39,850 bases of DNA, from positions 1 through 39,850 of the IMG/VR virus record IMGVR_UViG_3300003177_000067; one strand, given 5' to 3'. The position numbers and the translations under genes were made by a program. The notes beneath the pieces were generated by a model. It searched no databases. It saw only the letters and a program-made list of their open reading frames with translations, and was not told where the DNA came from. The stretch is from a virus. Below are positions 2,639 to 33,516 of the stretch, one piece after another. The number at the start of each line of letters is the position of its first letter. Position 1 is the stretch's first letter.

Positions 2639-2647
2639 GGAAAATAA

Positions 2648-4973: not shown

Positions 4974-4985
4974 AGGATAAATTAA

Positions 4986-5348
4986 ATGGCTTATACTGAT
5001 ATAAATAACACTATTAAAAATAGAAATGGAACATTTTCATCTTTGAGTGCCGATATTAATGCCGTAAATAATTCATTAAATAATATATTAAGCATAAGAC
5101 CTGGTACTTATCCAGGAAATCCTTTATTTGGTTGTAATATAGGTAAATTTGTATTTGAGCAAATTAACCCGTTAACGGTACAGTTAATGGAAGAAGAAAT
5201 AAGATACTCAATAAGTTTATTCGAAAAAAGAGTAAAAATCAAAAAAATAGAAATAAAAGAAGATTTAGATTATAATAGAGTCATTATAAATATACTTTTT
5301 AATATAACGGGTACATTAGATAAAACAGATAAATTTAAAAGAGGATAG
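4986..5348 (+). CDS. gp25-like baseplate wedge protein
   Basis: A 120-residue member of the gp25 / GPW_gp25 family, the wedge component conserved from T4 phage to type VI secretion (TssE), which sits at the sheath-baseplate junction. T4 gp25 is 132 aa. Typical elements are the N-terminal strand region, NPLFGCNIGKFVFEQINPLTVQLMEEEIRYSISLFEKRVKI at about residues 44-84, and a C-terminal strand pair (NRVIINILFNITGT). The family's EPR motif reads EKR here. AAAGGATAA precedes the ATG. The gp6-like gene begins 4 nt after the stop, as in T4 and many contractile systems. Confidence 0.8.
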   Translation: MAYTDINNTIKNRNGTFSSLSADINAVNNSLNNILSIRPGTYPGNPLFGCNIGKFVFEQINPLTVQLMEEEIRYSISLFEKRVKIKKIEIKEDLDYNRVIINILFNITGTLDKTDKFKRG

Positions 5349-5351
5349 TAG

Positions 5352-10039: not shown

Positions 10040-12326
10040 ATGAGTAGCATAGATAATTTTGTTAATGTAGCTGTACCAAAAACTCTTCGTGAAAAAGAAA
10101 TAATGTCTACTCTAATGCAAATTTATATAGATCACGAAAAAGATAGAACAGATATAAATATAAACAAAGTAATAATTACGACTTTATAGACTTTAAAAAT
10201 GAAATACTAAAAACGTACTTAAACGAAATATGGAGTGTTTTCGCCGATGTAAAAACAAACGAAAACATCCAAAATACATATAGACAAGCATATGATTTAA
10301 TTGGTACTACTTCTATAGGAGTTACAGAGTCTAAACTTAACCAGAACGTAACAAATCAGCATAGAAGTATAGCTAGAGAATTTAATACAAAAAAAGGAAC
10401 AAAAAACTCATTCTTTTTATTATATGATCTTGTTAGACTTTCTGAGTTAGATAGTATAGGTAAAGACGCATTTTTTAATTTATTAGAAGGAACAAAAAAA
10501 GACCCTAATAAAACATTTTATTATAGAGTTGAAAGCTCAATATATAAAGACGTATTTAAAGATGTTGTTGTACCTCTAGTACACCCTGTAGGTTTTGTAT
10601 GGGATTTTATAAGAATAATAAGTCTAGAAAATGAAGACTTATTCAACCTAGAATATAAAAAAGAAATAAGTTCATTAGAATTTACTGAATTTGACTCTAT
10701 AAACAAAAAACATAATAAATATACATTAGTACAAGAGAACATAATAGATATAAAACCTAGCGACTGTGGTTTTTTCAACCTTGGCCAAAACAAAAAAACA
10801 ATAATAGATAAAATATATGAGCCATTTGGTTTTCTTAATTCATTTATAATAAATATTGACGAATTTAAAAAAGAACGTTTAGAATTAGACTTTGTAGATA
10901 ATAAAAATAATCCTTCTTATAAACTAGTAAGAGATATAAATGATAATATCAAATTATATTCTAAACATAAAGAATTAGACGGAATTAAACTAAGAATAAA
11001 AAATGTTATATTAAAAGATGCGTCTAAAGGATTCTTAACATTAGATTTAAATTCAGAATTAATAAACGGTATAGAAAGAGAATATGTACAAGGTATATCG
11101 TTTAAAGAATTTGTTGTAATCGATGCAACTCATCTTGATGTTATATATGAATTTCACGACTCAGATACTATAGAAGAAGCATCTATATTATTACCACCTA
11201 AATTTATATCTTTTAATAAAAAATATTTCGATCGAGTTGAGTTTATTGTGTCAGATATAATAAACTCGTCTAAAACATACAACGGTAGACTAATTAAAAA
11301 TTATTATAAAAGTGCTATTATAAGATATACAACAAAAAATATAGTTTCTAAAGTTCTAACAAAAGATATAGGTACGTACGTTTCAAATATAAGACAAAAT
11401 GAAAGTTTATTACCTTTATCTTCTTGTGACCCTATATATAATCCTACAGACGAAAATGGTAATATAATACAATATAATGGTCTAAGAAACACAACAGATA
11501 ATACTATACCAGAAATAGATATAAAAGATACGTATGAAAATTTTGCTAGACTATCACCCGGTAATCTTGGTAAAAATACCCCTTGGCAAGTTGGTCATAA
11601 AGCATTAAATCCAATAGATTTTGGACACTGGAATGATGCCGATATGCGAATAGAATCTTATTTTAGACCTAAAACGCAAGACGATCTGAAACTTTTAGGC
11701 TCAACTATACCACCATCAAGATATGAAAATGATAACTTAGAAGTAGGTATACGTAGACAAGATATAGATGTAAATAATGCACACTATGTTGCTTGGGAAA
11801 ATAGAACAGAAATAAGAAAAGATCTTATTTGCGGTAGAGAAAAATATAATGTATTAAATTTTATATCAGGTGTAATTGGTAGAGGTATAAAAATAGGTGA
11901 CCCTAATGGAAAATTTATAATAGGTTCTGGTTATGACTCAGATACAGTACATAATTATCAACCGAGTTCATATTATAAAAATAATAGATACGTAGATGCA
12001 GAGGTATATAAGGCTGTATGGAATTTTGGTGATCTAAAATTTACAAAAGAAAATGACGAGCAACCTTAAACGAGTCTTCTTCAGATATTTTAAAAGTAAT
12101 GGTTACACCTGGAACGAAGAAATCTCTAGAGTCTCTTGGAAATGTATATAATATAGGGGATAATTTTACAATAGGACATGAAACGTTCTATATTGGATAT
12201 AAATTAGAATATGTTACTGTAGATAATGTAGAACAGTTTGGAACAGAAACAATAAATGATACATATGATTTTGGCGTGTATAGAAATAATGTACTTTTAA
12301 CAGATAACAACATTTCAGTGTTATAA
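10040..12326 (+). CDS. gp7-like baseplate wedge protein with two frame breaks
   Basis: Starting at the ATG at 10040 behind AAAGAGG, the protein reads MSSIDNFVNVAVPKTLREKE and continues through two single-base losses (about 10155-10165 and 12055-12064) to 762 residues. Its N-terminal ~150 residues carry a gpI/gp7-like pattern: AYDLIGTTSIGVTESKLNQ followed by AREFNTKKGTKNSFFLLYDLV, where the KGT..S motif is typical of wedge proteins that dock on gp6. The rest is strand-rich without a motif I can name. A segment near 11560-11660 (LGKNTPWQVGHKALNPIDFGHWN) may be a folded outer domain. T4 gp7 is 1032 aa. Position directly after gp6 and size support a gp7 role in linking the inner ring to the fibre network; homology is not proven by eye. 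Confidence 0.58.
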
Positions 12327-12329
12327 ATA
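12322..12329 (+). promoter_or_regulatory. T4-type late promoter (TATAAATA)
   Basis: Exact octamer overlapping the end of the gp7-like gene; it ends 25 nt before the ATG at 12354, with AAAAAGGTAGGAA in between as ribosome site. Confidence 0.6.
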
Positions 12330-12353
12330 AATATAAAAAGGTAGGAATTAGTA

Positions 12354-13016
12354 ATGAAATTACAAGATAATACAGATTTAAGAGGCGAATTTTCTATAAA
12401 AGCCTATAAAAAAGATGGTAGTGTAGAAGTTTACTCTGATAAAAATCTTATTATGGACGATGCGAGAGTAAATATGGCTAAACTAATCGGTGGCTTAACT
12501 TTAGGTACACCGATTAATAAAATTGTTTTAGGTACAAAAGGACATGTTGATCCAAATATAATAGATTATAAATTAGTTGGAGAACATAACTTTATATCTT
12601 CTAGACAATTTATTTTTTCTGAAGATATAGCTGCTGATGGAGCTTTAGGAGCTCCATCAGCAGATGGTAGTACAATACCGAATTTTTCTTATGAAATAAC
12701 TTTTGACACGGCTTCTTCATCATTAGATTATACAGACGTAAATGCCCAAGGTAGTATTTCAAACGTTGGTAAAACAATAACAGATCCTAATCCAGCTGTT
12801 AATGTATGTTCTGTTCAAAGAATAATTAATAACAGAACGTGTACATTCATAGTAAATATACCTGATTATGCTGCAAACTCTGCTACAGACGGTACTGTTG
12901 CTTATACTGAAGCAGCTCTTTATGCGGGTCCAGATATATTCTCAATGAAGACTTTTCCTGCTAGAGTAAAAGAGAATACTGTTAGATTAGAACTAACTTG
13001 GTCTATAATTTTCTGA
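12354..13016 (+). CDS. Phage structural protein, probable baseplate or fibre-attachment component
   Basis: A 220-residue protein with its own late promoter. The N-terminal pattern (LRGEFSIKAYKKDGSVEVYSDKNLIMDDARVNMAKLIGG, then INKIVLGTKGHV) recalls a protein type I have seen near the baseplate genes of large myophages, where a strand hairpin and a DGSV-x-NLI motif precede a jelly-roll-like domain. The C-terminus (YTEAALYAG, then FSMKTFPARVKENTVRLELTWSIIF) resembles the closing strands of baseplate or fibre-connector proteins, where a Trp-x-Ile-x-Phe end is common. No enzyme motif is present. It lies between the wedge genes and the fibre cluster, which suggests a peripheral baseplate part. It contains a perfect 13-bp hairpin. 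Confidence 0.6.
   Translation: MKLQDNTDLRGEFSIKAYKKDGSVEVYSDKNLIMDDARVNMAKLIGGLTLGTPINKIVLGTKGHVDPNIIDYKLVGEHNFISSRQFIFSEDIAADGALGAPSADGSTIPNFSYEITFDTASSSLDYTDVNAQGSISNVGKTITDPNPAVNVCSVQRIINNRTCTFIVNIPDYAANSATDGTVAYTEAALYAGPDIFSMKTFPARVKENTVRLELTWSIIF
12631..12663. other. Perfect 13-bp inverted repeat (hairpin) inside a structural gene
   Basis: CTGCTGATGGAGC and its exact reverse complement flank a 7-nt loop (TTTAGGA). The repeat encodes AADGALGAPSAD, which is itself a near mirror of small residues. It is GC-richer than its surroundings, lacks a following T-run, and lies about 385 nt upstream of the homing endonuclease. Confidence 0.75.
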
Positions 13017-13020
13017 TTAA

Positions 13021-13042
13021 TTAAGTATACATATTATATAAT
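13021..13042 (+). promoter_or_regulatory. Early-type promoter, TTAAGTATA-N7-TATAAT
   Basis: TTAAGTATA (13021-13029), seven bases, then TATAAT (13037-13042). The same two elements with the same 7-nt spacing precede both minus-strand cassettes. Here the -10 element ends only 5 nt before the endonuclease ATG, so transcription would begin at or next to the start codon. Confidence 0.6.
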
Positions 13043-13047
13043 ATAAT

Positions 13048-14625
13048 ATGATAAAAGAAATAAAAAAAGAATATCTTAAAGGTAAATCCAAAAGATATTC
13101 TCAAACAAAAAATCTAAAGTTATACAATTATGTAGAAGAAAAAATAACTTTAGATGTCCCTCATAAAGAAAAAGTTTATTGTCTAATAAATAATATAATC
13201 CCTAAATGTAAATTGTGCGATAATATACCTTCTTTTGAAAATTTTAATGTAGGTTTTAAAACATACTGTAGTATCTCTTGTCAAGCAAAAGGCGAAAAAT
13301 CCATACAAGAAAAAACAAATATTGTAAATATCCAAAAAAATGTAGCAAACTTATCAATAGAAGAAATTATAGATGGACTTTATAATAAAACATTAAAAAT
13401 ACAAAAGTGGAGATATATTGATAAACTAAGTAATTTTAAAAACTTTAAAACATTAGAACAAGTATATAAACATGTTATACTTAAGGATAACCAGATATGT
13501 AAATATTGTAATAATATACTTGATTATGATAAGAAAACACGAGAAAAAAGAAGTTGTATCTGCTTGAATAAATATGAGAAAGCTGTTATAGACTATAAAA
13601 ATTTATCTAATAAAGAATTTCTAGAAAAGGTTATAGAAAATAACATTTATCTATACACTAATGGCGTAAATAATAAATTTAAAAACGAATACTATAAACG
13701 ATTTGATAAAATAAGTGATGATTTTATGTTACAATTAGATACGAATTGTAAAGAATTAGATATTCATTTTAGTGGTTATCATTCATCTATTTCTAACGGA
13801 GAAAAAGAATTATTGGATTTTATAAAAAGTTTTTACACAGGTAATATTATAGAAAATGATAGACATCTTGGTAAAGAATTAGATATTTATTTACCGGATT
13901 TAAAAATTGCAATAGAGTACGATGGCGTATATTGGCATAGTTCTAAATTTAAAGATAAAAACTATCATTTAAATAAAACAAAAATATGTGAAGAAAATGA
14001 TATACAACTAATACACATTTTTGAAACAGAATGGTTAAATAAAAAAGATATAGTAAAAAGTATATTAAAAGCTAAATTAGGTTATTCAAATAAAAAAATT
14101 TATGCTAGAAAATGTATTATTAAAGAAATATCCAGTAAAAAGTCTAATAGATTCCTGGAAATGAATCATATCCAAGGAAAAGATAATGCACCTATACGTT
14201 ATGGTTTATTTTATAAAGATGAATTAGTACAAGTTGTTACATTTAAAAGATCCCATAGATCTAAAGACAAATATATTGAATTAAAAAGAAGTGCAACTAT
14301 ATTAAATACAACTGTAGTAGGCGGTTTTAGTAAATTATTAAAATATTCTAAGTCTATAATAAAAGAAGACATTATAACTTTTGCTGATAGAAGATATTCT
14401 AAATTAGATAATATTTATTTAAAAACAGGAATGTATTTAGATACAATTAAGCCTAATCATTTTTACATAAATGGCGATAAATTAGAAAGTAGAGAGAAGT
14501 ATCAAAAGCATAAGTTAGAAGATATATTAGAAGTATATGATGATAATAAAACAGCAATGGAAAACTGTCATAATAATGGGATATTTGAAATATACGATAG
14601 TGGAAATTATAAATACGTTTTATAA
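13048..14625 (+). CDS. Homing endonuclease, zinc-finger plus Vsr/EDxHD-type nuclease
   Basis: A 525-residue free-standing endonuclease. Two zinc-binding clusters precede the nuclease: C54-x2-C57 with C74-x3-C78, and C151-x2-C154 with C170/C172. The nuclease core lies at about residues 248-330: E252 in NGEKELLDF, E277 before LDIYLPD, then AIEYDGVYWHSS (E290, D292, W296, H297), H307 and QLIHIFETEW. This is the Vsr-like (EDxHD) fold seen in phage homing enzymes, which cut intron-less or intron-free alleles to spread. A second domain (about 353-490: RKCIIKEISSKKSNRFLEMNHIQG, then GLFYKDELVQVVTF and ITFADRRYSKLDN) often follows such nucleases in phages. It has no visible ribosome site and an early-type promoter right at its start. 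It sits between two structural regions, as a mobile gene would. Confidence 0.85.
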   Translation: MIKEIKKEYLKGKSKRYSQTKNLKLYNYVEEKITLDVPHKEKVYCLINNIIPKCKLCDNIPSFENFNVGFKTYCSISCQAKGEKSIQEKTNIVNIQKNVANLSIEEIIDGLYNKTLKIQKWRYIDKLSNFKNFKTLEQVYKHVILKDNQICKYCNNILDYDKKTREKRSCICLNKYEKAVIDYKNLSNKEFLEKVIENNIYLYTNGVNNKFKNEYYKRFDKISDDFMLQLDTNCKELDIHFSGYHSSISNGEKELLDFIKSFYTGNIIENDRHLGKELDIYLPDLKIAIEYDGVYWHSSKFKDKNYHLNKTKICEENDIQLIHIFETEWLNKKDIVKSILKAKLGYSNKKIYARKCIIKEISSKKSNRFLEMNHIQGKDNAPIRYGLFYKDELVQVVTFKRSHRSKDKYIELKRSATILNTTVVGGFSKLLKYSKSIIKEDIITFADRRYSKLDNIYLKTGMYLDTIKPNHFYINGDKLESREKYQKHKLEDILEVYDDNKTAMENCHNNGIFEIYDSGNYKYVL

Positions 14626-17813: not shown

Positions 17814-18521
17814 ATGCAATATTTTTACCATTCATCAATAAAAAATTATACTATAGCTTTATTAGATATGTTTAATGACATAAGAATCCCTAGGATAAAT
17901 GCTAATGGCGATAGAATAGCTGATATAATTATTCCTATAAAATTTGGTAATAAAGATAAAGCCTATACTATATCTGAACACGATATAGAAAATCTACATA
18001 CGGGTAATGTTAATACATTGCCTAGAATGGTATTAGCGTTCGATAGTATGGTTAAGGCGCCTGAAAGAGATACTAATAAATTAAATAAAGTAAATAGACG
18101 AAATTTATCTACAACAGATAAGCTTATAATGGATTTTCAACATAATCCTGTTGCTTACGATTTTAATTTTACCATATATGTAGCAACAAGAACATTTACA
18201 GACGCAACAATTATAGTAGAACAGATAGCTCCAATGTTTAGACCTGATATATCTCTTAAAATACAAGAGTTGGACGTACAAGATGTACCAACTACTGTAC
18301 CTGTTACACTAGGCGATTTTAGTATAGAATTACCGGATGAAATGGATGATGAAGATATAAGAATAATTCAAACAGAATTTAGTATAACATTAAAAGGTAA
18401 TTTATATTTACCTATAAAAGATAGTAAGCTTATTAATAATATAAATTTACATATGGATATAATAGAACAAGAAAGAAACAAAGCAGCTACAACATATAAT
18501 ATAGATACAATAGTTATATAA
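17814..18521 (+). CDS. gp15-like tail sheath stabiliser and completion protein
   Basis: This 235-residue protein matches the T4-like gp15 family, which caps the tail tube and sheath at the head-proximal end. T4 gp15 is 272 aa. Family-like features in order: FYHSSIKNYTIALLDMFNDI at the start, IIIPIKFGNKDKAY, the NTLPRMVLAFDSM block near residues 62-75, FQHNPVAYDFNFTIYVATRTFTDATIIVEQIAPMF near 110-145, and IIQTEFSITLKGNLYLP near the end. These closely follow the order in cyanophage and T4 homologues. It sits inside the tail-fibre cluster, away from the baseplate operon. AAAAGGATAA precedes the ATG. Confidence 0.8.
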   Translation: MQYFYHSSIKNYTIALLDMFNDIRIPRINANGDRIADIIIPIKFGNKDKAYTISEHDIENLHTGNVNTLPRMVLAFDSMVKAPERDTNKLNKVNRRNLSTTDKLIMDFQHNPVAYDFNFTIYVATRTFTDATIIVEQIAPMFRPDISLKIQELDVQDVPTTVPVTLGDFSIELPDEMDDEDIRIIQTEFSITLKGNLYLPIKDSKLINNINLHMDIIEQERNKAATTYNIDTIVI

Positions 18522-20703: not shown

Positions 20704-21405
20704 ATGAATAAGCCTACTATACCTAAAATAATTCATCAAATATGGATAGGTGAAGATATGCCTCAATCTATAATGATAGCTATGAAATCTATAAAAGACT
20801 CTAATCCTAATTATAAGTATTATTTATGGACAGATAAAGACATAGCTGAATTTAATTTACACGATAGTTATAAAAATTATAGTAATGTAAGATTAGCAAA
20901 TGAACTAAAATTTAAGATTTTAACAATATATGGTGGATGGTATGTAGACGCAGATATGATGTCGTCTACACCTATAGAGTCCTTACCATCAATATTTTTA
21001 GAATCAGATATTTGTTCTTCTACTGACTCTAGTGAACCTTCCAGTAATTCTAATTCTGTTATTGGTTGTCTTAGAAATACTGATTTTAGTCTATTATTAA
21101 AATACTATATGGAAACTAGTTCTACATCTGTTAAACCTCATTGGAAAAGATGGTGTAGAGAACAAAATGTTTTAAAGATACCACTAGAGCTAATAGGTTT
21201 CGGACCTAAAACAGTATTTAGAGATTTAAGACTAAAAACTTGGCATAATGAAGTTATAAAAACTGAAGTCAAGCAAAGTAATACACATTTCTTAGGTTCA
21301 GATAGAGACGTATTACCATTGGACATAAGAGAAGTTAAGTTATTAGAGGACGTCGGCAATCATAAACAAACAAAAAATAAGTTCTATAAAAAAAGTTATA
21401 AATAA
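20704..21405 (+). CDS. Glycosyltransferase, DXD-type sugar transferase (GT32-like)
   Basis: A 233-residue enzyme of the Gly_transf_sug / GT32-like family. Motifs in order: IPKIIHQIWIG (residues 6-16), YYLWTDKDI (39-47), the helix ANELKFKILTIYGGWYVDADMM with the nucleotide-sugar-binding Asp-Ala-Asp at 82-84, and GFGPKTVFRD near 165. These transfer a hexose from an NDP-sugar, using a divalent metal, in polysaccharide or protein glycosylation. The C-terminal tail is basic (KQTKNKFYKKSYK). No signal peptide or membrane segment, so it acts in the cytoplasm. It sits inside the fibre operon, which suggests that a fibre or a host glycan is the acceptor; that part is inference. AAAGGATATATTTA precedes the ATG. 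Confidence 0.85.
   Translation: MNKPTIPKIIHQIWIGEDMPQSIMIAMKSIKDSNPNYKYYLWTDKDIAEFNLHDSYKNYSNVRLANELKFKILTIYGGWYVDADMMSSTPIESLPSIFLESDICSSTDSSEPSSNSNSVIGCLRNTDFSLLLKYYMETSSTSVKPHWKRWCREQNVLKIPLELIGFGPKTVFRDLRLKTWHNEVIKTEVKQSNTHFLGSDRDVLPLDIREVKLLEDVGNHKQTKNKFYKKSYK
21397..21404 (+). promoter_or_regulatory. T4-type late promoter (TATAAATA)
   Basis: Exact octamer at the 3' end of the glycosyltransferase gene; it ends 22 nt before the ATG at 21426, with AAACAAGAGGC as the ribosome region. Confidence 0.58.
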
Positions 21406-21425: not shown

Positions 21426-23813
21426 ATGGCAAAAGCAGGAATATTATTTAGAAGAGCACTAAAAGAAAAGCTTATCATGTCTCCACCATTAGTAGGAGAA
21501 TTGGTATATGCAATAGACACAAACGAGCATGGATGGTTAAATGCTGAAGGAGTACTTAAATGGGGTACATTCGTAGAGTATAAAACACCTACATTATCTA
21601 TAGCAGCTAAACAGTTCTTTATAGAAAATCTTCCTCCAGCTGGTTCCATTGTTTATGCTAGTGATACAGGTGAACATGGTTGGTTAGATGGGGATGGTAA
21701 ACTCGTATGGTCTAAACTAAATAGAACATTAGTCGCGTCTGCTATGGGTACAGAATTAAATACTTCTAATTTTAATGGACAATTATCATCTACAGACAAC
21801 AATGTACAAATAGCAATAGAAAAATTAGAGAAATTTTATTATAATGCACTTTTTACGGCTGCAGATATAAATACTGATACTGTTGCTTTTAACAATAATT
21901 TATCGCCAACAGAAGATAATATACAAAAGGCATTAAATAAAATAGATTCTCTACAATTAGGCGATAAAAACGAAATAATTAATCCAGCAAACTACACGGG
22001 AAATCTTTCTAATATAAGTAATACATTAACATCTGTTTTATCTGTTATTGATAGATTACAATTAGGCGATAAAAATATAGTAATAGATACGAGTGCTTTT
22101 ACAAAAAATCTATCTTCACTAGATGTAGATATACAAACCGCGTTAAGCACAATAGATAAATTAGATGTAGGTTTCGTTAGCACAGGTTTAGAAAAAATAA
22201 CTCAAAATCTTAAATCAGGTTGGAGACTAAGTAATACAGACCCTTTATCTCAAGCAAATATAGGTATAAATGCAATAGATTTAAGTATTAGTACGAATTT
22301 AAATAATGTAAATGGCGCATCTGGTGATAATAGTTTTAGTATAGGATTAAATTCTGTTTCTTCAGCGAAATCAAGCTCAGCTATAGGAAATAGTTCAAAA
22401 GCGACAGGTAATTATTCTACTGCTATAGGCGGAGGAGATGCTTCGGGTGTTGGTTCATTTGCAGCTGGTATAAACAACATTAGTTCTGGGAATTACTCAA
22501 CAACTTTTAATAGTAATACAAAGGCTATATCAGATTATTCAACTTCATTTGGTAGATATAATGTTGGTACAGATATAAACAATATTTTTGAAATAGGTGA
22601 TGGTACAAGTTCAACTAATAGAATAAACTTATTTGAACTGAATAGAAATGGAGATATAACATTACCTATTTCGAACGTAAATAACATAACTAATCCTAAA
22701 AATATAATAACAAAAGAATATATAGATTCAGTCGTTGCTAAAGGTTTAGGTAATAATAACACTAGTACAGGTTTATATGCATATTCTATAGGTTTAAATA
22801 CAACTGCTATAGGCGATTATTCTACATCTATAGGAGAAAATACAATATCGCTTAATAAAAACTCATTTTCTTGTGGTATGTTTAATGTGGGAACAGATAC
22901 AGCAAATATCATAGAAGTAGGTATGGGTACAGACGATTTAAATAGAGCAAATGCATTAGAGATAACATCTACTGGACTAGTATTAGCACCTAATTCGTCT
23001 TTGCTTGATATGACTTCGCCTAAGACATTAATAACAAAAGAGTATCTAGATTTAAATAAAGATTCGTTCATGAGTGGACTAGAAAAAATTGTAGATGTAG
23101 AAACAGGATGGAGACTTATAGGTAGAAATGTAGCTAATTATTCACCTATAGGAAAAGGTGCTATTGATTTTAGTGAATCAACACTGACTTCTCTTGGTTC
23201 TAGTGGTAATTATTCTGTTTCTTTTGGTTTAGATACAAAATCTGTATCAGATTATTCTGTTTCTTTTGGTAAATATAATATAGGAACAGCAACAAATATA
23301 TTAGAATTTGGATATGGTACAGATGATTTAAACAGAGCAAACGCATTAGAATTAAGTAATACAGGTATAATGAGTTTACCATTATCTACTATATCTAATA
23401 TATTAAAACCTAAAGACGTTGTTACGAAAGAGTATTTAGAAGCGAATTCCAGTACTACAGCGTTAGATACGTCTGTTGATACAACTCTTTTTAATAATAA
23501 TTTAAGTTCTACAGATGTAAACGTGCAAACGGCTTTAAATACGATAGATTCATTGGTTTTACAAGATACGAACGAATTCATAGATAGATCACTAGAGTAT
23601 GCTAATATTGTTAGTATAGATTACGACGCTGTAAATAATATGACACGAACAAACTATTTATATAGAAATATAGCATATTATTGCTTATATACTTACTCGA
23701 ATGATCAACTTATAACAGAAAAATATTACCTTACTACGGGTGATGTTTTATTATTAACTAAAACTTATGCTTATAATCTAGCAGGAAACTTAGATTCGTT
23801 AACTAGAAGCTAG
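21426..23813 (+). CDS. Long tail fibre, two docking modules, YadA-like head repeats, YD-like end
   Basis: A 795-residue fibre. Two docking modules follow each other (residues 1-45: AGILFRRALKEKLIMSPP, NEHGW; and about 55-100: FFIENLPPAGS, SDTGEHGWL). Helical repeats follow at about 110-255 (LSSTDNNVQIAIEKLE, LSPTEDNIQKALNKID). Two larger modules then start with GLEKI...GWRL and hold YadA-like beta-roll repeats (FSIGLNSVSSA, STAIGGGDASG, SVSFGLDTKSVSD). These modules end with an acidic cap and PK-x-x-TKEYLD. The last ~80 residues repeat the YD-like module of the genes at 16296 and 16996 (VSIDYDAVNNMTRTNYLY, KTYAYNLAGNLDS). It should form a trimeric shaft with a distal binding tip. Confidence 0.78.
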   Translation: MAKAGILFRRALKEKLIMSPPLVGELVYAIDTNEHGWLNAEGVLKWGTFVEYKTPTLSIAAKQFFIENLPPAGSIVYASDTGEHGWLDGDGKLVWSKLNRTLVASAMGTELNTSNFNGQLSSTDNNVQIAIEKLEKFYYNALFTAADINTDTVAFNNNLSPTEDNIQKALNKIDSLQLGDKNEIINPANYTGNLSNISNTLTSVLSVIDRLQLGDKNIVIDTSAFTKNLSSLDVDIQTALSTIDKLDVGFVSTGLEKITQNLKSGWRLSNTDPLSQANIGINAIDLSISTNLNNVNGASGDNSFSIGLNSVSSAKSSSAIGNSSKATGNYSTAIGGGDASGVGSFAAGINNISSGNYSTTFNSNTKAISDYSTSFGRYNVGTDINNIFEIGDGTSSTNRINLFELNRNGDITLPISNVNNITNPKNIITKEYIDSVVAKGLGNNNTSTGLYAYSIGLNTTAIGDYSTSIGENTISLNKNSFSCGMFNVGTDTANIIEVGMGTDDLNRANALEITSTGLVLAPNSSLLDMTSPKTLITKEYLDLNKDSFMSGLEKIVDVETGWRLIGRNVANYSPIGKGAIDFSESTLTSLGSSGNYSVSFGLDTKSVSDYSVSFGKYNIGTATNILEFGYGTDDLNRANALELSNTGIMSLPLSTISNILKPKDVVTKEYLEANSSTTALDTSVDTTLFNNNLSSTDVNVQTALNTIDSLVLQDTNEFIDRSLEYANIVSIDYDAVNNMTRTNYLYRNIAYYCLYTYSNDQLITEKYYLTTGDVLLLTKTYAYNLAGNLDSLTRS

Positions 23814-23821
23814 GATAAAAT

Positions 23822-25756
23822 ATGATAAATTTAAAAACAAATATTGATCTATTAAGAAAATCAGGCGGAAATGTTATTAATAAAGAAGGTGTAGATACAA
23901 ATTTATTATTTGCTCCACCAAGTAATCACTTTACAGAAGTACAAAATATAGCATATAATGGTATAAATTATACTGAATATTTTTCTATAGATGGTGTTGA
24001 TTATCTATTTGCTCCTATAAAGTTTGATGCAAATAATAGTCCTCTTACTAATTCTATATTATATAAATGGGATGGTACATCATTAATAGAACATCAATTA
24101 ATACAGACGACAGGAGCTGTTCATGGTAATTTCTTTACTATAGGTTTTGATAAGTACATTTTTATATCGCAAAATTATAATGAAGTATATAATTGGTCAA
24201 CCAATTCAAAATTATATAAATGGGATGGTAACAATTTTATATTATTACAAGATATACAAACAAATGGTGCTAATTATTCTTCGCATAAAAATATAAATGG
24301 TGTAGATTATTTAATGATAAGTAATTCTTATGATAACGTTACTACTAATATAAACTCAGAACTATTTGTTTGGGACGGATTTAAATTTGTATTAGATAAA
24401 GCATTCCCAACGAAGAAATGCTTAATGAATACGTTTCATACTATAGGGTCAAACGAATATCTATTTTTACCGAGCTCTTATGACGAAACAACATTATCAT
24501 ATAATAATACAATAGATATATACAAATTTGATGGTACAACATTTATATTAGAGCAAAGTATTAATTCTACAAATCCAACATTTATTAATGCTTTTGAAAT
24601 AAGTGGGGATACATATATATTATCATCAAATTCTAGAACCAGTTTATCTAGAAATGTAGATCAGATATTATATAAATTTGACGGTGCAAATTTCGTCCAA
24701 TTACAAACACTTTTAACAAACTTTAGTTCAGTTGGCTCTAGATTCTTTATACATAACAATTTAAATTACCTACTAGTATCATTTAATAACGATAATAATG
24801 GACAGGAGGGTTCATCTATACTATATAGATGGTCTAATAATAAATTTATTATAGCTGATATTAAACATTCAAGTACTGGTATAATTGATACGGTATTACC
24901 ATTGTCTACAAATACTTATATATTTTCTTCTAATTTAGAAAAAACAGTAGACATAAATAGCATAAATAGTAAATTATATCAATTTACAGCCCCTTTAGAT
25001 GTACTAACAATACCTATAAAGAAAGAAAGAAATTTATTAGGTATTAGTACTGTTGATACACTCGATATATTAGGGGATAATTCTTGTATATCATTATATA
25101 GATTTAACGGCAATCTATTAGACGATAGTGGTAGTAATAATGCTGTTTCAAATGGTATAGTCTCATATATAGACGGTTTTTGGAACAAATATTTAAGAAT
25201 ACAAGATGGTTTAAATAATTTTGTAACAATAGCCCCTGCGAATATAATAAATGATGATGAAAGTCATAGTATGAGTATATGGATTAAAGGAGAAGTAAAT
25301 AATATACCATTTTTTGGCAATCATGGTTTACTAGATGCTAATACAGTCGGTGGTGGTTATGGTTTTGGTTTTGAAGATGGAGCAATCGTATCGAACACGT
25401 ATGTTGTAGATAGTGGTATATTTTCAAATGAGATACCCGTATATATAGGACTAACTAAAGGTTTAAGAGATGGTATTCTAGTTATATTAAATGTTGAACC
25501 GGATATTTTCAATAATATAACATATACTTATAATGGATATAAATTTACAGTATATAAGAACGGTATAGAAAGAATATCTATACCATATACGAAAGGATTT
25601 ACATCTGGTACATATCCTATAATAGCAGGAAATCTAAATTCGTATACGTCTTTAAGTGATACTTCTAGTCAAAATCTTAATATAGAACAAGTTAGAATAT
25701 TTAATAAGTCGTTGAGAGAGTCAGAAGTAATAACAGTCTTTAAAGAGGAGAAATAA
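23822..25756 (+). CDS. Receptor-binding protein with seven EAR/EPTP beta-propeller repeats and LamG-like lectin domain
   Basis: A 644-residue protein. Residues 37-392 contain seven repeats of about 48 residues with the EAR (EPTP/epitempin) pattern: a strand with DYLF/KYIF/DYLM/EYLF/TYIL/NYLL/TYIF, a loop, then S-x-LYKWDG-x-x-F or variants (FVWDG, IYKFDG, LYRWS) and a hydrophobic-QxI strand. The extra N-terminal NHFTEVQNI strand would close the ring, as in a seven-bladed propeller. Residues about 418-644 form a LamG/concanavalin-like jelly-roll (SCISLYRFNGNLLDDSGS, MSIWIKGEV, a final FNKSLRESEVITVFKEE). Both folds bind partner proteins or glycans in other systems. It lacks the docking module and lies right after a fibre gene, so it probably rides on a fibre. 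AGGATAAAAT precedes the ATG. Confidence 0.75.
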   Translation: MINLKTNIDLLRKSGGNVINKEGVDTNLLFAPPSNHFTEVQNIAYNGINYTEYFSIDGVDYLFAPIKFDANNSPLTNSILYKWDGTSLIEHQLIQTTGAVHGNFFTIGFDKYIFISQNYNEVYNWSTNSKLYKWDGNNFILLQDIQTNGANYSSHKNINGVDYLMISNSYDNVTTNINSELFVWDGFKFVLDKAFPTKKCLMNTFHTIGSNEYLFLPSSYDETTLSYNNTIDIYKFDGTTFILEQSINSTNPTFINAFEISGDTYILSSNSRTSLSRNVDQILYKFDGANFVQLQTLLTNFSSVGSRFFIHNNLNYLLVSFNNDNNGQEGSSILYRWSNNKFIIADIKHSSTGIIDTVLPLSTNTYIFSSNLEKTVDINSINSKLYQFTAPLDVLTIPIKKERNLLGISTVDTLDILGDNSCISLYRFNGNLLDDSGSNNAVSNGIVSYIDGFWNKYLRIQDGLNNFVTIAPANIINDDESHSMSIWIKGEVNNIPFFGNHGLLDANTVGGGYGFGFEDGAIVSNTYVVDSGIFSNEIPVYIGLTKGLRDGILVILNVEPDIFNNITYTYNGYKFTVYKNGIERISIPYTKGFTSGTYPIIAGNLNSYTSLSDTSSQNLNIEQVRIFNKSLRESEVITVFKEEK

Positions 25757-25757
25757 A

Positions 25758-26543
25758 ATGAGTACAGAACTAGGTATATTAAATAAAGTAAAACTAAAAA
25801 GAGACTTTTATTCTGTAGATATATATTCTTTAACAGATAAAATGTTAGACTGTACAAAACTATTTAGTGGTTCAGATTTAAAAGGTAGATTGATTGTTCT
25901 TGATATGCCTAGTGTTTCAACAGTAGACAACGTAGATCCTTTTAATGATAGTTCTGGAATAAACTTATATAAATTTAACAATGATTTACTAGATTATTCT
26001 ACAAAAAATAATGCAACAAATCCGCTAAATATAACATATTCTAATGTATCTGCATTTGGACCTAATTCTATCGTTTTTAATTCATCCGAAATAACAATGT
26101 ATGATTTTTTAAGTAATAAAACACACCTTACAATAAGTTATTGGATAAATTCTATAGACTCTCTTAGTAAAAATATATTAAGTACTGTAAACGTGGGTCA
26201 ATCTGGTTCTTTACTAATTAATAATTATTCTATAGAATATTGGGATAGTACTTTAACAAAACATATAATTAATTTACCTATAGAGCCAAATAAATGGAAT
26301 AATGTTATAATAACAATAAGTGGAAGTATTATAACAGCATATTATAACTCTGTGCTCGTTAGTGCAATAAATATGAATAATACTGTTATAACACAAACAT
26401 TTTCAGGAATAATTGGCAAAGCAGACACATTGTATGCTAACTATTTAACAGAACAACTAACATCTAGTATTGATCAATTTAGAATTTTCAGTAAAGCAAT
26501 AGTACAAAGCGAAATAGATATACTTTATATAGAGGAAAAATAA
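25758..26543 (+). CDS. LamG-like lectin-domain fibre protein
   Basis: A 261-residue protein with a short N-terminal attachment region (about 1-65) and one LamG/ConA-like domain: INLYKFNNDLLDYSTKNNAT, LTISYWINSIDSL, NKWNNVIITISGSIITAYYNSVLV and the closing SSIDQFRIFSKAIVQSEIDILY. The order (edge strand with N-DLLD, Y-W, W-N-V, D-Q-FRIFSKA) is the usual LamG_3 order. It resembles the last third of the preceding protein and the gene at 26725, so the three form a family. Starts 1 nt after the upstream stop behind AAGAGGAGAAATAA and ends in a TAATG overlap. Confidence 0.72.
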   Translation: MSTELGILNKVKLKRDFYSVDIYSLTDKMLDCTKLFSGSDLKGRLIVLDMPSVSTVDNVDPFNDSSGINLYKFNNDLLDYSTKNNATNPLNITYSNVSAFGPNSIVFNSSEITMYDFLSNKTHLTISYWINSIDSLSKNILSTVNVGQSGSLLINNYSIEYWDSTLTKHIINLPIEPNKWNNVIITISGSIITAYYNSVLVSAINMNNTVITQTFSGIIGKADTLYANYLTEQLTSSIDQFRIFSKAIVQSEIDILYIEEK

Positions 26544-26728
26544 TGTCAGCAAATATTTTTTATACAAATAAAATAAATAATCAAACAGGCGATACGAGAG
26601 TAATAAAAGAAATATATTTTGATCCGGCTAAACATGTTGATATAAGTTATCAGTTTATAAATGTTGGTATAGATTTAGAAATATATAAGGGTTCTGGAAC
26701 ATATTATAAAGTGGTGGTAATGAAATGA
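26543..26728 (+). CDS. Small 61-residue protein between two lectin-domain genes
   Basis: Coupled on both sides: TAATG with the upstream gene, ATGA with the downstream gene, and an AGAGGAAAAA ribosome site. The sequence (NQTGDTRVIKEIYFDPAKHV, then VDISYQFINVGIDLEIYKG, TYYKVVVM) is strand-rich and could form a small beta sandwich. I recognise no family; an accessory or chaperone for the flanking lectin proteins is possible. Confidence 0.6.
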   Translation: MSANIFYTNKINNQTGDTRVIKEIYFDPAKHVDISYQFINVGIDLEIYKGSGTYYKVVVMK

Positions 26729-27723
26729 GTATAGATTTTAATATAAAAAACCAAATAAAAGAATATGGTATGCGTATAATAAATAGTACAAGTTTTGACA
26801 GTACTACTATGGTAAACGTTACACCGTCATTAATCAATAAAGGTATAAGTATAGAAGCAAATAAAATAGTTGTAATTCCTTATAGAGGTGATAATAGAAG
26901 GAATTATTTATCGTTTGATATGTTTAATGACTCTAGCTCTATATCACATTTTAAACTTGACGATAATTTCCCTATTGAAACACTTGTTCTAAATGAAGCC
27001 TCTAAAGCAATAAATGGTGGTTTAGGTCTAAACGGTTCTGTTGAAAAGGTTGGTACAATAAACTCTTCAGTGGGCGCATTTTATCAAAATGCTCTATTTG
27101 ATGGTACTTTAGGCGGTATAATAAATTTTGGTAATACCACTGTTTCTAATAGACTATTTATGGGAGAACCTCAGGATTTGGTTATGTCTTGTTGGCTAAA
27201 TATAAGTAGTATAAAAGATAGTACAAGTGCTGTTGGTAATATAATAAGATATATGTGCGTAAATTATGGGATAGGAAATTTAAATAATTCTGGTATAGAT
27301 ATAGAATTGACACCTCATGCTATAGATCCTCTTAATTATTATACGATTAAAGCAAATAGAATATCTATAAATTCAGAGACATATATAGATTTTTTAGGTA
27401 ATACAACAACTAGTAATAAAATATCTTGTTCTACAGGTAATCTTAATATATCGTTAAATAAAGACGTACATTTATGCGTTTTTATGTCTCTAGGCAATAT
27501 AAAGATATATATAGATGGTGCACTTATAAATTATTTGACTACATATATAAATAACAATATAATATATAATTTAGCAGAAGACAAATTTACAACAATTGCT
27601 GGTAAATTAGATAATGGCGTTTATTCTAACCAAATAAAAGGTTCTATTGATAATTTTAGATTTTTCTCTAAAGCTAATTTTTCCGATGGTGACGCGCTAG
27701 TGTTATTTAATGAAGGTATATAA
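26725..27723 (+). CDS. LamG-like lectin-domain fibre protein (third copy)
   Basis: A 332-residue protein. After an N-terminal attachment region (about 1-70) comes a LamG/ConA-like jelly-roll: SSISHFKLDDNFPIETL, FYQNALFDGTLGGIINFG, DLVMSCWLNISSIKD, KDVHLCVFMSLGNIKIYIDGALI and the closing GSIDNFRFFSKANFSDGDALVLF. The order matches the two preceding LamG proteins. ATGA overlap with the small gene upstream. The next late promoter begins at its stop codon. Confidence 0.7.
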   Translation: MSIDFNIKNQIKEYGMRIINSTSFDSTTMVNVTPSLINKGISIEANKIVVIPYRGDNRRNYLSFDMFNDSSSISHFKLDDNFPIETLVLNEASKAINGGLGLNGSVEKVGTINSSVGAFYQNALFDGTLGGIINFGNTTVSNRLFMGEPQDLVMSCWLNISSIKDSTSAVGNIIRYMCVNYGIGNLNNSGIDIELTPHAIDPLNYYTIKANRISINSETYIDFLGNTTTSNKISCSTGNLNISLNKDVHLCVFMSLGNIKIYIDGALINYLTTYINNNIIYNLAEDKFTTIAGKLDNGVYSNQIKGSIDNFRFFSKANFSDGDALVLFNEGI

Positions 27724-27758: not shown

Positions 27759-29349
27759 ATGGCACAAACAGGAATATTATTTAGAAGAGCTTTAAAAGCT
27801 AACTTGGTTATAGATCTCTTCTGGCGTTCTAAATTGGGGTAATTTTAACTTAACAGGAACAACTTCTGCTGGAGCAGTTTTATTAACGGGCGTTAAAGCA
27901 GATTTTATTGCGAATCCACCTATATCTGGAGAAATGGTATTTGCAACTGATACAAACGAACACGGTTGGATAAATTCCGTAGGTGCCTTAACTTGGAGAG
28001 ATTTAAGCGTTAGTACTAGTAGTACGTCTGTAGCAACTAGTACAGATGTAACTAACTTTAATACCAATCTTACAGCTGCAGATGATACAGTTCAAAAAGC
28101 GTTAGATACTTTGGATAATTTAACTCTAGGATCTGGAACAGGTGATATAATTTCTTTAGATGTAACAACATTTAATAATAATTTAAGTGTAACAGATAAT
28201 ACAGTTCAAAAGGCACTAAATACATTAGATAATATAGTTATTTCTGGTATAGACGGTACTTTAGATACGAGTTTATTTGCTGGTAATCTTAGTGTTGCAG
28301 AGAATACCATGCAACAAGCTTTTAATAAGCTAGATAAACTATTTGTACCAACTTTAGCAGGTGAATTAAATGTTGATACGACATTATTTAATAATAACCT
28401 TACAGCAGCAGATATTAGTATACAGGCTGCATTGAATACAATAGATAATCTTGTTCTAGGTGATATTAACCCTGTATTAAGAGCTTTAGATAAATTAGAT
28501 AAACTTGTTACAGTAGATCCTTTAGATTCAACAGCTTTTGTTGGTAACTTAGCTACAACAGATAATACATTACAACTTGTTGCTAACAAAGTAGATGCTT
28601 TAGTATTTACTGATATTATAGATGCTACTGGATTTACGGGTAACTTAGCTACAACAGATAATACATTACAAGAAGTTGCTATAAAATTAGATCAACTCGT
28701 AACAACAGATCCTTTAGATGCTTCTTTATTTGCAGGTAACTTAGCTACTACAGATAATACATTACAACTTGTTGCTAACAAAGTCGATGGATTACAATTA
28801 GGTGAATTAAATGAAGTTTATACATCTGTAGGATTTGCTGGTAACTTGACTCCAGCAGATAATACATTACAAGAAATATTTAATAAGTTTGATACATTGG
28901 TAACAGCAGATCCTTTAGATGCTTCTTTATTTGCGGGTAACCTAACTACAACAGATAATACTTTGCAACTTGTTGCAAACAAAGTAAATGGATTACAATT
29001 AGGTGAATTAAACGAAGTTTATACATCTGCAGGATTTGTTGGTAATTTAGCTACAACAGATAATACATTACAGTTAATATTTAATAAGGTAGATGGATTA
29101 CAATTAGGACAAGTTAATGAGGTTTATAGTTCAGCAGGATTTGCAGGTAACTTAGCTACAACAGATAATACATTACAACTTATATTTGATAAAGTCGATT
29201 CATTACCTATATTAAAAGCTTCAACTGGTACATCAGCTACAAGACCTACTACACCTTCTATTGGTGATTATTTCTGGGATACTACTTTACTTAAACCTAT
29301 ATGGTTTAATGGTACAAGCTGGACAGATGCTACAGGTACAGTGGTTTAA
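27759..29349 (+). CDS. Fibre with docking modules and ~10 helical repeats; first docking module interrupted
   Basis: The ATG at 27759 (AQTGILFRRALKANLVI) opens a docking module that stops at 27840. The frame continues differently from about 27811 (SSGVLNWGNFNLTGTTSAG), and a complete second docking module follows (DFIANPPISGE, VFATDTNEHGW). This matches the two-module start of the gene at 21426, except that about 20-22 codons are missing from the first module, with a frame change. From about 28060 on there are about 10 repeats of about 33 residues: FAGNLATTDNTLQLVANKVD, GLQLGELNEVY and variants, likely a trimeric helical shaft. The C-terminus (STGTSATRPTTPSIGDYFWD, PIWFNGTSWTDATG) is a common phage fibre end domain. 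The missing segment may be a real deletion or an assembly loss. Confidence 0.7.
28060..29210 (+). repeat. Degenerate tandem repeats of about 100 bp in the fibre gene
   Basis: The coding repeats share near-identical DNA cores, for example AACTTAGCTACAACAGATAA followed by TACATTACAA at several positions between 28540 and 29170. Similarity is highest in the later copies, which suggests recent duplication. Such DNA is open to copy-number change and to assembly errors. Confidence 0.75.
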
Positions 29350-30183: not shown

Positions 30184-30945
30184 TTAAACATAAAAGACTT
30201 AATGGAATAATATTAAGAAATAGCTGTAAACAAAACCTTACAGATAATCCACCGGTTCCGGGCTTGGGTTAAACTAAATAGTAATAACCAATTAAAAGCA
30301 AATATAGTCTTTAAAGGTGAAACTATACCGAGTAATACGTTAGGTACTAATGGCGATAAATATATACAATACAATTCTTCACCTATTATAAACTATTATA
30401 AACAAAATCTACAATTGATATATTCAATACCTAATAATGGCCCTAGTGTGGTATTAGTAGAAGATCCTAATTTAGAGAAAATAGGTATTTCATCTGGAGA
30501 TGAAATTTTCTCGATTTTTTCAATAACAAATAATGATTCTATAGTTGACGGCAAAAATTATATAGATTTTTCTATAACACTTAAATTAAAATCTACAAAG
30601 ACTCCTGTTAATTTAAATTTAAATATAGATGGTATAGATATAGTTATACCAGATGGCTTATATGATTCATCTACAGGTATATATAAAGCAGAATTTAAAG
30701 GATATGAAAGAGATTTTTATGGTTATAGTAATTTTGTACAATTATATATGCTTGTTAAAAATATTAATAAACCTGTTATAGATTATTTAAACACAGGTAA
30801 TAGTATAGGTGTAAATAGTATAATAAATATTATTCCATTCTCTATAATAAGAAACAAACTAGATAACCAACCATATACTGAATGGAGTAAAATTAATAAT
30901 ATTTGGAAAAAACAAATATTTTATTATGTATTGGGGTCTTTATGA
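30180..30945 (+). CDS. Docking-module protein (type B, paralogue 3), interrupted in the module
   Basis: The ATG at 30180 forms an ATGA overlap with the upstream gene and reads NGIILRNSCKQNLTDNPPVP up to a stop at 30273. The frame continues from about 30272 as AWVKLNSNNQLKANIVFKGE, then TLGTNGDKYIQY, to a TGA at 30945. Compared with paralogues 1 and 2, about 11-12 codons are missing at the join, exactly the GE-x-VF-x-x-DTGE core. The rest is longer than in its paralogues: a strand-rich insertion (YSIPNNGPSVVLVEDPNLEK, FSITLKLKSTKTPVNLNLNI) followed by the usual YTEWSKINNIWKKQIFYYVL end. Confidence 0.6.
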
Positions 30946-32456
30946 GTTTAAAAACGCCTAGTGGAAGAATAGATAATAAAATAATAAAGAAAATGTTTGT
31001 TAAACATAATAATCTAAATAAAGAAATAGTAGATGGTTATATAAAAGACTATAATATTAAAGCATGGTGGCAGAACTTTAATATTTTATCTTATAAAATG
31101 AATATTTACAACATCTATGGTGATGGATATACAGATATAAACTGTAATGGTTCATATATAGTTGTTGATTATAATAATGGATTAAAGAGTATTACTTATA
31201 GAGATTATGCTAAAATAGAACATAATAATAAAAAAGTTGTAACAGTATCTATATATCAAGACAAAAATTATATAGATCTAGCCAATATAACAAGTACGGC
31301 ACCTACAGATATATCTATATTAGCATGTGAAATAAGTACATTAAAAGGACTATTTAAAAATAATACGAATCTTAGAAACGTAGAATTCAGATATGATTCA
31401 AAAAATATAGAAAGCTTGGAAGAATTTTGTTTAAATTGTACATCTTTAGAAACAATAAATTATTTTAATACAGAAAACGTAAATAATTTCAACTCTGCGT
31501 GGGAAAATTGTACAAATATGTTAAGTTTTCCTGAAATACTGTTAACATCATCTGATTCATTAATTAGAACATGGAAAAATTGTAAAGCTTTACATGATTT
31601 TCCAATATTAAATACAACACATATAAAAGGCTTCTATAGTACATGGGAAGGTTCTGGCGTAATTAATTTTCCTTTAATAGATACAAGTTCGGCTATAGAT
31701 TTGATTGCAACTTGGAAAGATTGTACGATAATGAATACGTTTCAAGCAATAAATACAATAAATGTTACACGAATGAATTCAACATGGGAAAATTGTTCGT
31801 CTCTTATAATTTTTAGACAAATAGATACAGAAAACCTAAAAGAATTAGATTCAACATGGAAAGGATGTGATAAGTTTACGTCATTTCCATTAATTAATAC
31901 AAGAAATACTGTAACAATGAAAAATACATGGCAAAATTGTATAGGTTTAATTACTTTTCCTTTAATTGATACGGGAAAAGTAAAGAACTTAGAAAGTACT
32001 TGGGAAAATTGTTCTAGTATAATTCTATTCCCAGAAATAGAATCTACTTCTTGCGAAAATTTTACTAGAACATGGAAAGGATGCGTATCTATGACGTCGT
32101 TTCATGTAATAATTATAAATAAAACTAATAATTTAATAGAAACATGGAGAGATTGTACATCACTAACGAAGTTTCCTGTTAGTGATTTTTCTACTATAAG
32201 AAGTTATATTTTGACATGGGATGGATGTGTATCTTTATTAGACTTCCCAATGCTTAATAGTTTTTATGCTTATAATTTTGATAAAGTATGGAGAAATTGT
32301 TCAAGTTTAAAATGTTTATCAAGTATAGATACTACTTCAGCTATAACTATAAATAATGTCTTTGACGGTTGTACTTCTTTAGTTAGACCAAATACAACAG
32401 AAATAGATTCTATTTATAGTAACATAAAATTTATTAATAATTCGCCTTGTTATTAA
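30942..32456 (+). CDS. Receptor-binding protein with BspA/DUF285-type leucine-rich solenoid
   Basis: A 504-residue protein; I start it at the ATG at 30942, which overlaps the upstream stop as ATGA and follows GGGGT, rather than at an in-frame ATG at 30903. An N-terminal domain (about 1-130) is unassigned. From about 150 to the end there are 14 repeats of about 24 residues with the pattern W-[EKQR]-[NGD]-C-[ST]-x-[LM]-x-x-F-P-x-[IL]-[DN]-T, for example WENCSSLIIFRQIDTENLKE and WKGCDKFTSFPLINT. This is the BspA-like / DUF285 repeat, a right-handed LRR-type solenoid common in bacterial surface proteins. The Trp and Cys stack once per turn. In a phage fibre cluster it is best read as a receptor-binding or tip protein. 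Confidence 0.78.
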   Translation: MSLKTPSGRIDNKIIKKMFVKHNNLNKEIVDGYIKDYNIKAWWQNFNILSYKMNIYNIYGDGYTDINCNGSYIVVDYNNGLKSITYRDYAKIEHNNKKVVTVSIYQDKNYIDLANITSTAPTDISILACEISTLKGLFKNNTNLRNVEFRYDSKNIESLEEFCLNCTSLETINYFNTENVNNFNSAWENCTNMLSFPEILLTSSDSLIRTWKNCKALHDFPILNTTHIKGFYSTWEGSGVINFPLIDTSSAIDLIATWKDCTIMNTFQAINTINVTRMNSTWENCSSLIIFRQIDTENLKELDSTWKGCDKFTSFPLINTRNTVTMKNTWQNCIGLITFPLIDTGKVKNLESTWENCSSIILFPEIESTSCENFTRTWKGCVSMTSFHVIIINKTNNLIETWRDCTSLTKFPVSDFSTIRSYILTWDGCVSLLDFPMLNSFYAYNFDKVWRNCSSLKCLSSIDTTSAITINNVFDGCTSLVRPNTTEIDSIYSNIKFINNSPCY

Positions 32457-32691: not shown

Positions 32692-33516
32692 CTATATACT
32701 TTCTTTAATTAAAGCTTCAACGTCTGCATCTATATTATTAGAAACAGACTTATTATTAGAAACATTATCTCTAATATCTGTACCAGATACGCTACCATAT
32801 CTAGGAACGTGCTTAAGTATACAATTCGAACCTTTAAATTTTTCTATAACCATGGGATTACCTTGAACATAATAATCAAATTTATTAACAAATTCTATCC
32901 AATCTTCATTTATATTTGGCGTTTTTATGGTTTTGTAACCTTTTGATTCAAGTAATTTAATATTTCTATCTAAATCTATAACATCATCATCGTCAACTCT
33001 TAAACCTACAGTAATATTTGGTGAAATTCTTTTTGCTTCTTCTAAAACAACTTTATGTCCTTTATGAAAACCTTGAAATCTCGCTGGTACTAATACTTTA
33101 GGTATAAATTCGTCATAAAATGTTTCAGGTGTAAAATCTTGTAATACGAGATTTTTTGTAACATCGCTATAATCTGGATTGAAGTTTTTATTATAACCTT
33201 TTAAATCTTTTGGATTATCACCATTATTTTCTACAACAATTTGTATATCAAATTCGTTTAAGTATATATTTCTTATTTCTTTAAAAGGCGCTTGCATAGC
33301 TACAAAAACAGTAAAACCTAAATCACTTAATCTTCTTGCTCTAGAAAGACCTGTATGCATATTTATTTCTCTACCATGGACACCTACGTCCATATTTTTC
33401 ATTTCTTCTCTTAGTTCGTCTCCGTCTATAACAAAACTATCTTTTATATATTTTTCCATTGCTTGCGCAACTGTTGTTTTACCTGCGCCAGATTTACCTA
33501 ATAATAATATTATCAT
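32692..33516 (-). CDS. APS-kinase-like / nucleotidyltransferase fusion (PAPS-synthetase-like or NMNAT-like)
   Basis: A 274-residue two-domain enzyme. Domain 1 (1-~95) is a P-loop kinase of the adenylylsulfate-kinase type: GKSGAGKTT (7-15), DGDELR (31-36), then GREINMHTGLSRARRLSDLG and FVAMQAPFKEIRNIY, the order of CysC. Domain 2 (~138-260) is a HIGH-type nucleotidyltransferase: PARFQGFHKGH (144-154) and SGTDIR (244-249). That pair occurs both in NMN adenylyltransferases and, with other surroundings, in ATP sulfurylase; domain size is nearer to the former. The neighbour upstream is a sulfotransferase-like gene, which would use PAPS, the product of APS kinase. A role in making PAPS is my preferred reading; NAD-related or nucleotide-sugar chemistry is the alternative. 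The start lies 3 nt after the sulfotransferase stop, so both are co-transcribed. Confidence 0.72.
   Translation of the reverse strand: MIILLLGKSGAGKTTVAQAMEKYIKDSFVIDGDELREEMKNMDVGVHGREINMHTGLSRARRLSDLGFTVFVAMQAPFKEIRNIYLNEFDIQIVVENNGDNPKDLKGYNKNFNPDYSDVTKNLVLQDFTPETFYDEFIPKVLVPARFQGFHKGHKVVLEEAKRISPNITVGLRVDDDDVIDLDRNIKLLESKGYKTIKTPNINEDWIEFVNKFDYYVQGNPMVIEKFKGSNCILKHVPRYGSVSGTDIRDNVSNNKSVSNNIDADVEALIKESI

Follow-up and report, generated by a model that had tools for sequence, protein, structure and literature searches.

The EAR (EPTP) beta-propeller has so far been known almost only from animal proteins of neurobiology and deafness. In the epilepsy protein LGI1, seven EAR units form seven four-stranded blades (PDB 5Y2Z, 9KZC), blade 7 is completed by an N-terminal strand together with the last three strands, and D334/E336 and D381/E383 are reported to coordinate Ca2+ in the central channel, either as ligands or through water (PMC5906670). 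In TSPEAR, a thrombospondin-type laminin G (LamG) domain is joined to EAR repeats (PMC5065119). Beta-propellers are also found in phage proteins with a proven or suspected function in receptor binding, namely phi11 gp45, PRD1 P2 and PhiKZ gp131C; these belong to propeller families other than EAR, and that of PhiKZ gp131C is seven-bladed and sits at the baseplate periphery (PMC4901313). EAR propellers, LamG domains and phage propellers are each known, and EAR in phage tails is apparently undescribed: a search of openly accessible papers returned none that links EPTP/EAR to phage tails.

Here we analyse an IMG/VR virus record of 39,850 bases, linear and probably a fragment, the whole of which is referred to as the window. 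The initial annotation of this DNA had placed the gene at 23822-25756 in a phage fibre cluster and had read its product as seven EAR repeats, matching the propeller best known from animal LGI/epitempin proteins and fused to a LamG domain. Each of these points was upheld by the evidence described below.

Sequence evidence for a seven-unit EAR propeller

The open reading frame at 23822-25756 (plus strand) encodes a protein of 644 aa with Pfam matches to EPTP and Laminin_G_3, hereafter the EAR-LamG protein. An N-terminal segment (residues 1-33, 23822-23920), predicted with pLDDT below 50 and a single short helix, is followed on the same strand by EAR unit 1 (residues 35-85, 23924-24076), unit 2 (86-136, 24077-24229), unit 3 (137-186, 24230-24379), unit 4 (187-238, 24380-24535), unit 5 (239-288, 24536-24685), unit 6 (289-339, 24686-24838) and unit 7 (340-389, 24839-24988). 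The protein scored 55.4 bits (E 6.3e-15) against Pfam EPTP/EAR (PF03736), for which the cut-off is 21 bits, with five stretches passing singly; the Pfam search of the whole record placed two EPTP units above the cut-off. WD40, kelch and other propeller families gave no match to the protein in Pfam up to E 10.

To avoid circularity, a repeat HMM was built from 26 other propellers of seven units each (182 units in all), with the window protein left out. This profile matched seven contiguous units in the EAR-LamG protein (164.6 bits, E 2.5e-53) at residues 36-85, 89-136, 138-186, 189-238, 241-288, 290-337 and 363-388. The seventh match is partial, since unit 7 is the most diverged and is recognised in its second half only. 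The propeller region shuffled 1000 times scored no higher than 11.7 bits. A profile of the relatives finds LGI1 from sequence alone (E 1.2e-30), whereas phmmer against the PDB with the single window sequence returned noise only. The EAR-LamG protein had no family in PHROGs, and neither IMG/VR nor a set of 50,697 named phages yielded a relative of the entire protein.

Predicted fold of the propeller

The AlphaFold2 monomer was modelled from an alignment of 24 bacterial and prophage relatives, which covers neither the first 32 residues nor the C-terminal part. The model contains 28 strands within residues 37-388, arranged as a seven-bladed ring with four strands per blade, and its pLDDT is mostly above 90 over residues 50-320. 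Because the propeller was modelled with an EAR alignment, the model and the family assignment are not independent lines of evidence. In Foldseek, the human LGI1 EPTP domain ranked first (E 2.4e-19), with the next family at 4e-8. Structural alignment to LGI1 EPTP gave Z 37.9 and an rmsd of 2.1 A over 311 residues at 21% identity; the next entry reached Z 31.3. Taken together, the profile and the predicted fold assign residues 35-389 to a closed seven-bladed EAR/EPTP beta-propeller.

As in LGI1, the predicted ring is closed by an N-terminal strand. The initial annotation had anticipated this closure, and had counted the strand concerned as an extra one preceding the repeats. The closure stands; the strand is not extra, being the first strand of unit 1 (residues 37-43) and one of the 28 that make up seven blades of four, and by this strand count it is the one expected to complete blade 7. 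LGI1 is an animal synaptic ligand, whereas the window protein is the product of a phage gene, carries a LamG domain and has no LRR.

The C-terminal LamG domain and its paralogues

Residues 421-640 (25082-25741, plus strand) match Laminin_G_3 (PF13385) at a borderline 27.7 bits against a cut-off of 27.6. Homology to the next gene and the fold nevertheless make the assignment secure. The gene directly 3' of the EAR-LamG gene (25758-26543, plus strand) encodes a LamG paralogue without a propeller (41.8 bits), which matches the C-terminal 270 residues of the EAR-LamG protein (blastp 1.9e-9 / 8e-12, 281 aa). A model built from 17 LamG sequences is a jelly-roll (pTM 0.70, mean pLDDT 64.8) that matches the ConA-like or jelly-roll domains of many binding proteins with Z 18-20. 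Paralogy and predicted fold thus support a ConA-like LamG jelly-roll at residues 421-640. Matches of this model to clostridial-toxin binding domains were set aside as reflecting the shared jelly-roll fold only, as other LamG-type proteins, GH43 AbnA among them, score almost equally.

A second LamG paralogue (29.9 bits) is encoded at 26725-27723 on the plus strand, so that three LamG genes are adjacent, with a 61-aa ORF between the last two and a propeller in the first only. An origin by entry of the propeller into a LamG paralogue, within its N-terminal part, was also considered and rejected: the likeness between the N-terminal segment and the N-termini of its neighbours is not significant (p 0.04-0.57).

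In TSPEAR the LamG domain comes before the EAR repeats. The window protein differs from TSPEAR in having LamG after EAR, and its sequence link to TSPEAR and to ADGRV1, another animal EAR protein, is no closer than that of the EAR family.

Tail genes and the fibre neighbourhood

T4-like baseplate genes, encoding a tail tube cap, a gp53-like wedge, a gp5 hub and a gp6 wedge, occupy 349-10014 of the plus strand, and a T4 gp15-like tail sheath stabiliser (151 bits) follows at 17814-18521 (plus strand). The baseplate proteins are only ~28-35% identical to those of named phages of Vibrio, Pseudomonas and Campylobacter, and the virus is therefore distant from described phages. Beyond the baseplate and gp15-like genes, fibre-like genes form a cluster in which several have YadA-head repeats. 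The EAR-LamG gene lies in the middle of this cluster and shares its strand with the fibre and baseplate genes around it: immediately upstream is a fibre protein with YadA-head repeats and an Mtd_N-like N-terminus (21426-23813, plus strand), and downstream of the LamG paralogues is a fibre-like repeat protein (27934-29349, plus strand).

Many of the fibre genes have a common N-terminus of ~45 aa (PPxxGELVFATDTGEHGW) that weakly resembles Mtd_N (22 bits, under the cut-off). It is found in the ORFs starting at 18549, 19238, 21426, 29367, 29770 and 34216, and in part in that starting at 27934. Judged by its sequence, this weakly Mtd_N-like stretch may be a common attachment module. The EAR-LamG protein is without it, and no attachment domain was recognised in its N-terminal 33 residues, which are a possible attachment segment. 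A gene for a glycosyltransferase with a DXD motif (Gly_transf_sug, 36 bits) is also present within the cluster at 20704-21405 (plus strand), and its product might modify fibres or host glycans.

EAR propellers in other phages

Other phages were surveyed for EAR by repeated motif scans of IMG/VR and, separately, among the 50,697 named phages. In IMG/VR, the only true EAR contigs to emerge from the scans, apart from the window, were L003 and L032. Most of the WDG motif matches there were unrelated tail proteins. Another candidate, L027, has a viral ORF of 470 aa (11927-13336) with IYKWDG repeats of roughly 39 aa; it was rejected as EAR since these are not EPTP by Pfam, and possibly represent another propeller type. 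Contig L003 contains three canonical EAR units cut off by the contig end, and a phage tail context was not discernible there.

L032 is a contractile prophage, in which sheath, tape measure, baseplate J and tail protein I genes are followed in order by a gene for an EAR fibre. This fibre combines a tail-collar N-terminus (PF12571, 61.8 bits) with seven EAR units (EPTP 165 bits), and it agrees in length, scores and unit positions with a locus of Desulfoluna spongiiphila AA1 (L096). Its propeller lies in the fibre body, beyond the N-terminal baseplate-binding domain.

Among the named phages, EAR was found in one of the 50,697, Vibrio phage vB_VcorM_GR7B. Its protein gp155 contains LamG, SPRY, EPTP and DUF7483 and matches tail-fibre PHROGs; the gene is located downstream of the baseplate genes, two genes after that of the paralogue gp153. 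Both ends are conserved between gp153 and gp155, but the middles differ, that of gp155 containing SPRY and EAR. The EAR repeats of GR7B have diverged greatly, with good scores for only three of them. Both fibre paralogues (L064:5742-9011 and L064:9475-13848) are annotated as hypothetical only.

The L032 and GR7B propellers thus show that, in at least two proteins recognisable as phage fibres, EAR lies in the part that is exchangeable. A survey of this kind had been proposed by the initial annotation, and it places EAR in at least two further phage tail proteins, that of the Desulfoluna prophage and GR7B gp155. The window protein is the third phage case. All three have an EAR propeller in a contractile-tail phage, and GR7B gp155 also has LamG, as the window protein does; the arrangement differs, the other two being built on other fibre backbones (a PF12571 N-terminus in L032, a DUF7483 C-terminus in GR7B). 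EAR propellers are rare in phage tails.

Bacterial relatives and the source of the phage propellers

A single GTDB genome scan recovered 35 EAR loci from many phyla, nearly all of the intact domains having seven units. The family is nonetheless sparse among bacteria: EAR was present in 5 of 194 genomes of the Desulfoluna order, and in 1 of 395 genomes of a phylum-wide sample, the one being the Desulfoluna genome itself. The bacterial EAR proteins, including those of Thiomargarita (L067) and Desulfonema (L078) and L074, resemble the window protein in having seven units, with up to 30% identity. They differ in having the D-W-E and AxAN motifs preserved in most of their units, and in being secreted or surface proteins encoded outside tail clusters; one carries a signal peptide and dockerin-like modules, as read from its sequence without a profile. 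Three giant proteins (L074, L087 and L091) pair EAR with LamG. In L074, LamG (1575-1786) comes directly after EAR (1225-1566), which is the order of the window protein. These giants, with EAR propellers and several LamG domains, are an unstudied type of adhesin.

These data alter the framing of the initial annotation, which had described the EAR propeller as best known from animal proteins. Seven-unit EAR propellers are not confined to animals but occur in many bacterial phyla, some with LamG, and an animal source is therefore not needed. The pairing of EAR with LamG is real and recurs in the bacterial giants, in GR7B and in animal TSPEAR (PMC5065119). The EAR type is unusual for a phage, as had been claimed, although a seven-bladed propeller at the baseplate has a precedent in PhiKZ gp131 (PMC4901313). 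We infer that the phage EAR propellers originate from bacterial surface proteins. The phage propellers sit on long branches in the tree, which does not fix their placement relative to the bacterial ones.

Loss of most D-x-E positions in the phage copies

In bacterial EAR units D15, W16 and E17 are each conserved in about two thirds of 225 units, and by alignment D15/E17 correspond to D334/E336 and D381/E383 of LGI1. These positions are acidic in 1 of 12 cases in the window propeller, 3 of 14 in L032 and 1 of 6 in GR7B. Judged by sequence, the window propeller lacks the LGI1-type central-channel Ca2+ site, defined by D-x-E on adjacent blades; this site is a feature of LGI1 and lies outside the Pfam definition of PF03736. 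The framework is retained, with 12 framework positions kept to 91% in the window, 94% in L032 and 86% in GR7B. Of all proteins scored for the second motif, AxAN, the lowest were the three from phages, and the longest end branches of the tree are those of GR7B (9.4), the window (4.4) and L032 (2.8), compared to a median of 0.72.

Low retention of D-x-E is also seen in bacterial L093, L094, L097 and L098, and likeness to canonical repeats had played a part in choosing the bacterial comparators; of 14 D-x-E positions, 7-12 are still kept in the few bacterial proteins that were identified with the Pfam profile alone. The sequences are suggestive of fast divergence in the phage propellers, with D-x-E largely lost and the blade framework kept, as a pattern rather than a proven rule.

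Function of the EAR-LamG protein

The position of the EAR-LamG gene in the tail-fibre/baseplate cluster is one trait of a phage receptor-binding protein, and we consider it probable that the product is an exchangeable tail-associated adhesin module of a T4-like contractile-tail phage. As part of the virion, the protein would probably be attached to the baseplate or to a fibre, with the short N-terminus, LamG or a partner fibre providing the link. The exposed loop surfaces of the propeller would be presented to a receptor, either a host-surface protein or a glycan, and LamG would provide a second contact or dock to the neighbouring LamG paralogues. EAR propellers would then be exchangeable phage-tail modules, as their place inside recognisable fibres in two other phages suggests, and would join the folds that phages use for host recognition. 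The window protein would offer a minimal, Ca2+-poor version of EAR to set against LGI1, and the largely unstudied EAR and EAR-LamG surface proteins of many bacterial phyla would be the likely source. A wider reading, which we advance tentatively as a possibility, is that EAR is a recurring receptor-binding module of contractile tails, independently acquired from bacterial surface proteins, in which the constraint of the Ca2+ channel has been lifted and the blades diverge rapidly.

A ring alone is no proof of binding, because PhiKZ gp131C likewise has no proven role (PMC4901313). The main alternative gives the propeller a structural role as connector or hub of the tail, host contact being made by the LamG paralogues or other fibres. 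Propellers often serve as protein-protein platforms, those of phi11 gp45 lying between stem and tower (PMC4901313), and the loss of D-x-E tells us no more than that a single conserved site can be dispensed with. However, the Desulfoluna prophage propeller is found past the domain that binds the baseplate, the GR7B propeller is in the variable middle of the fibre, where binding modules usually swap, and fast divergence would be less expected of a conserved hub than of an exposed surface; we regard a connector as unlikely. That the protein is instead a virus-encoded adhesin off the tail, decorating the capsid or displayed or secreted by the infected cell, would fit the secreted or surface nature of bacterial EAR and EAR-LamG proteins and the want of a recognised tail-attachment domain, but it appears quite improbable given a start (MINLKTNIDLLRKSGG...) without an obvious signal peptide and same-strand fibre and baseplate genes all around. 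An enzyme, such as a depolymerase or glycosidase on an endosialidase-like propeller scaffold, is hardly credible: endosialidase NF chains do appear lower in the Foldseek list (E about 1e-7), but LGI1-type structures are far ahead in fold and sequence, EPTP is the sole propeller family matched, enzyme propeller families giving none, and EAR domains have no known catalytic site.

Other features of the window

Rfam and tRNA scans of the window gave no matches. An HNH/homing endonuclease gene (13048-14625, plus strand; phrog_3339, E 3e-102) lies between the baseplate and fibre genes, and Rfam returned no intron. The gp6-like wedge protein is seemingly split between ORFs 5352-6101 and 6862-10014 (plus strand), the second of which has ~450 extra N-terminal residues. 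At 30903-32456 (plus strand), an adhesin-like member of the fibre cluster encodes a 517-aa protein with BspA/DUF285-like repeats of the pattern TWxNCxxL, scoring 22.5 bits for DUF285, under the cut-off of 25. A gene with an APS-kinase-like P-loop and a cytidylyltransferase-like part is located on the opposite, minus strand at 32692-33516.
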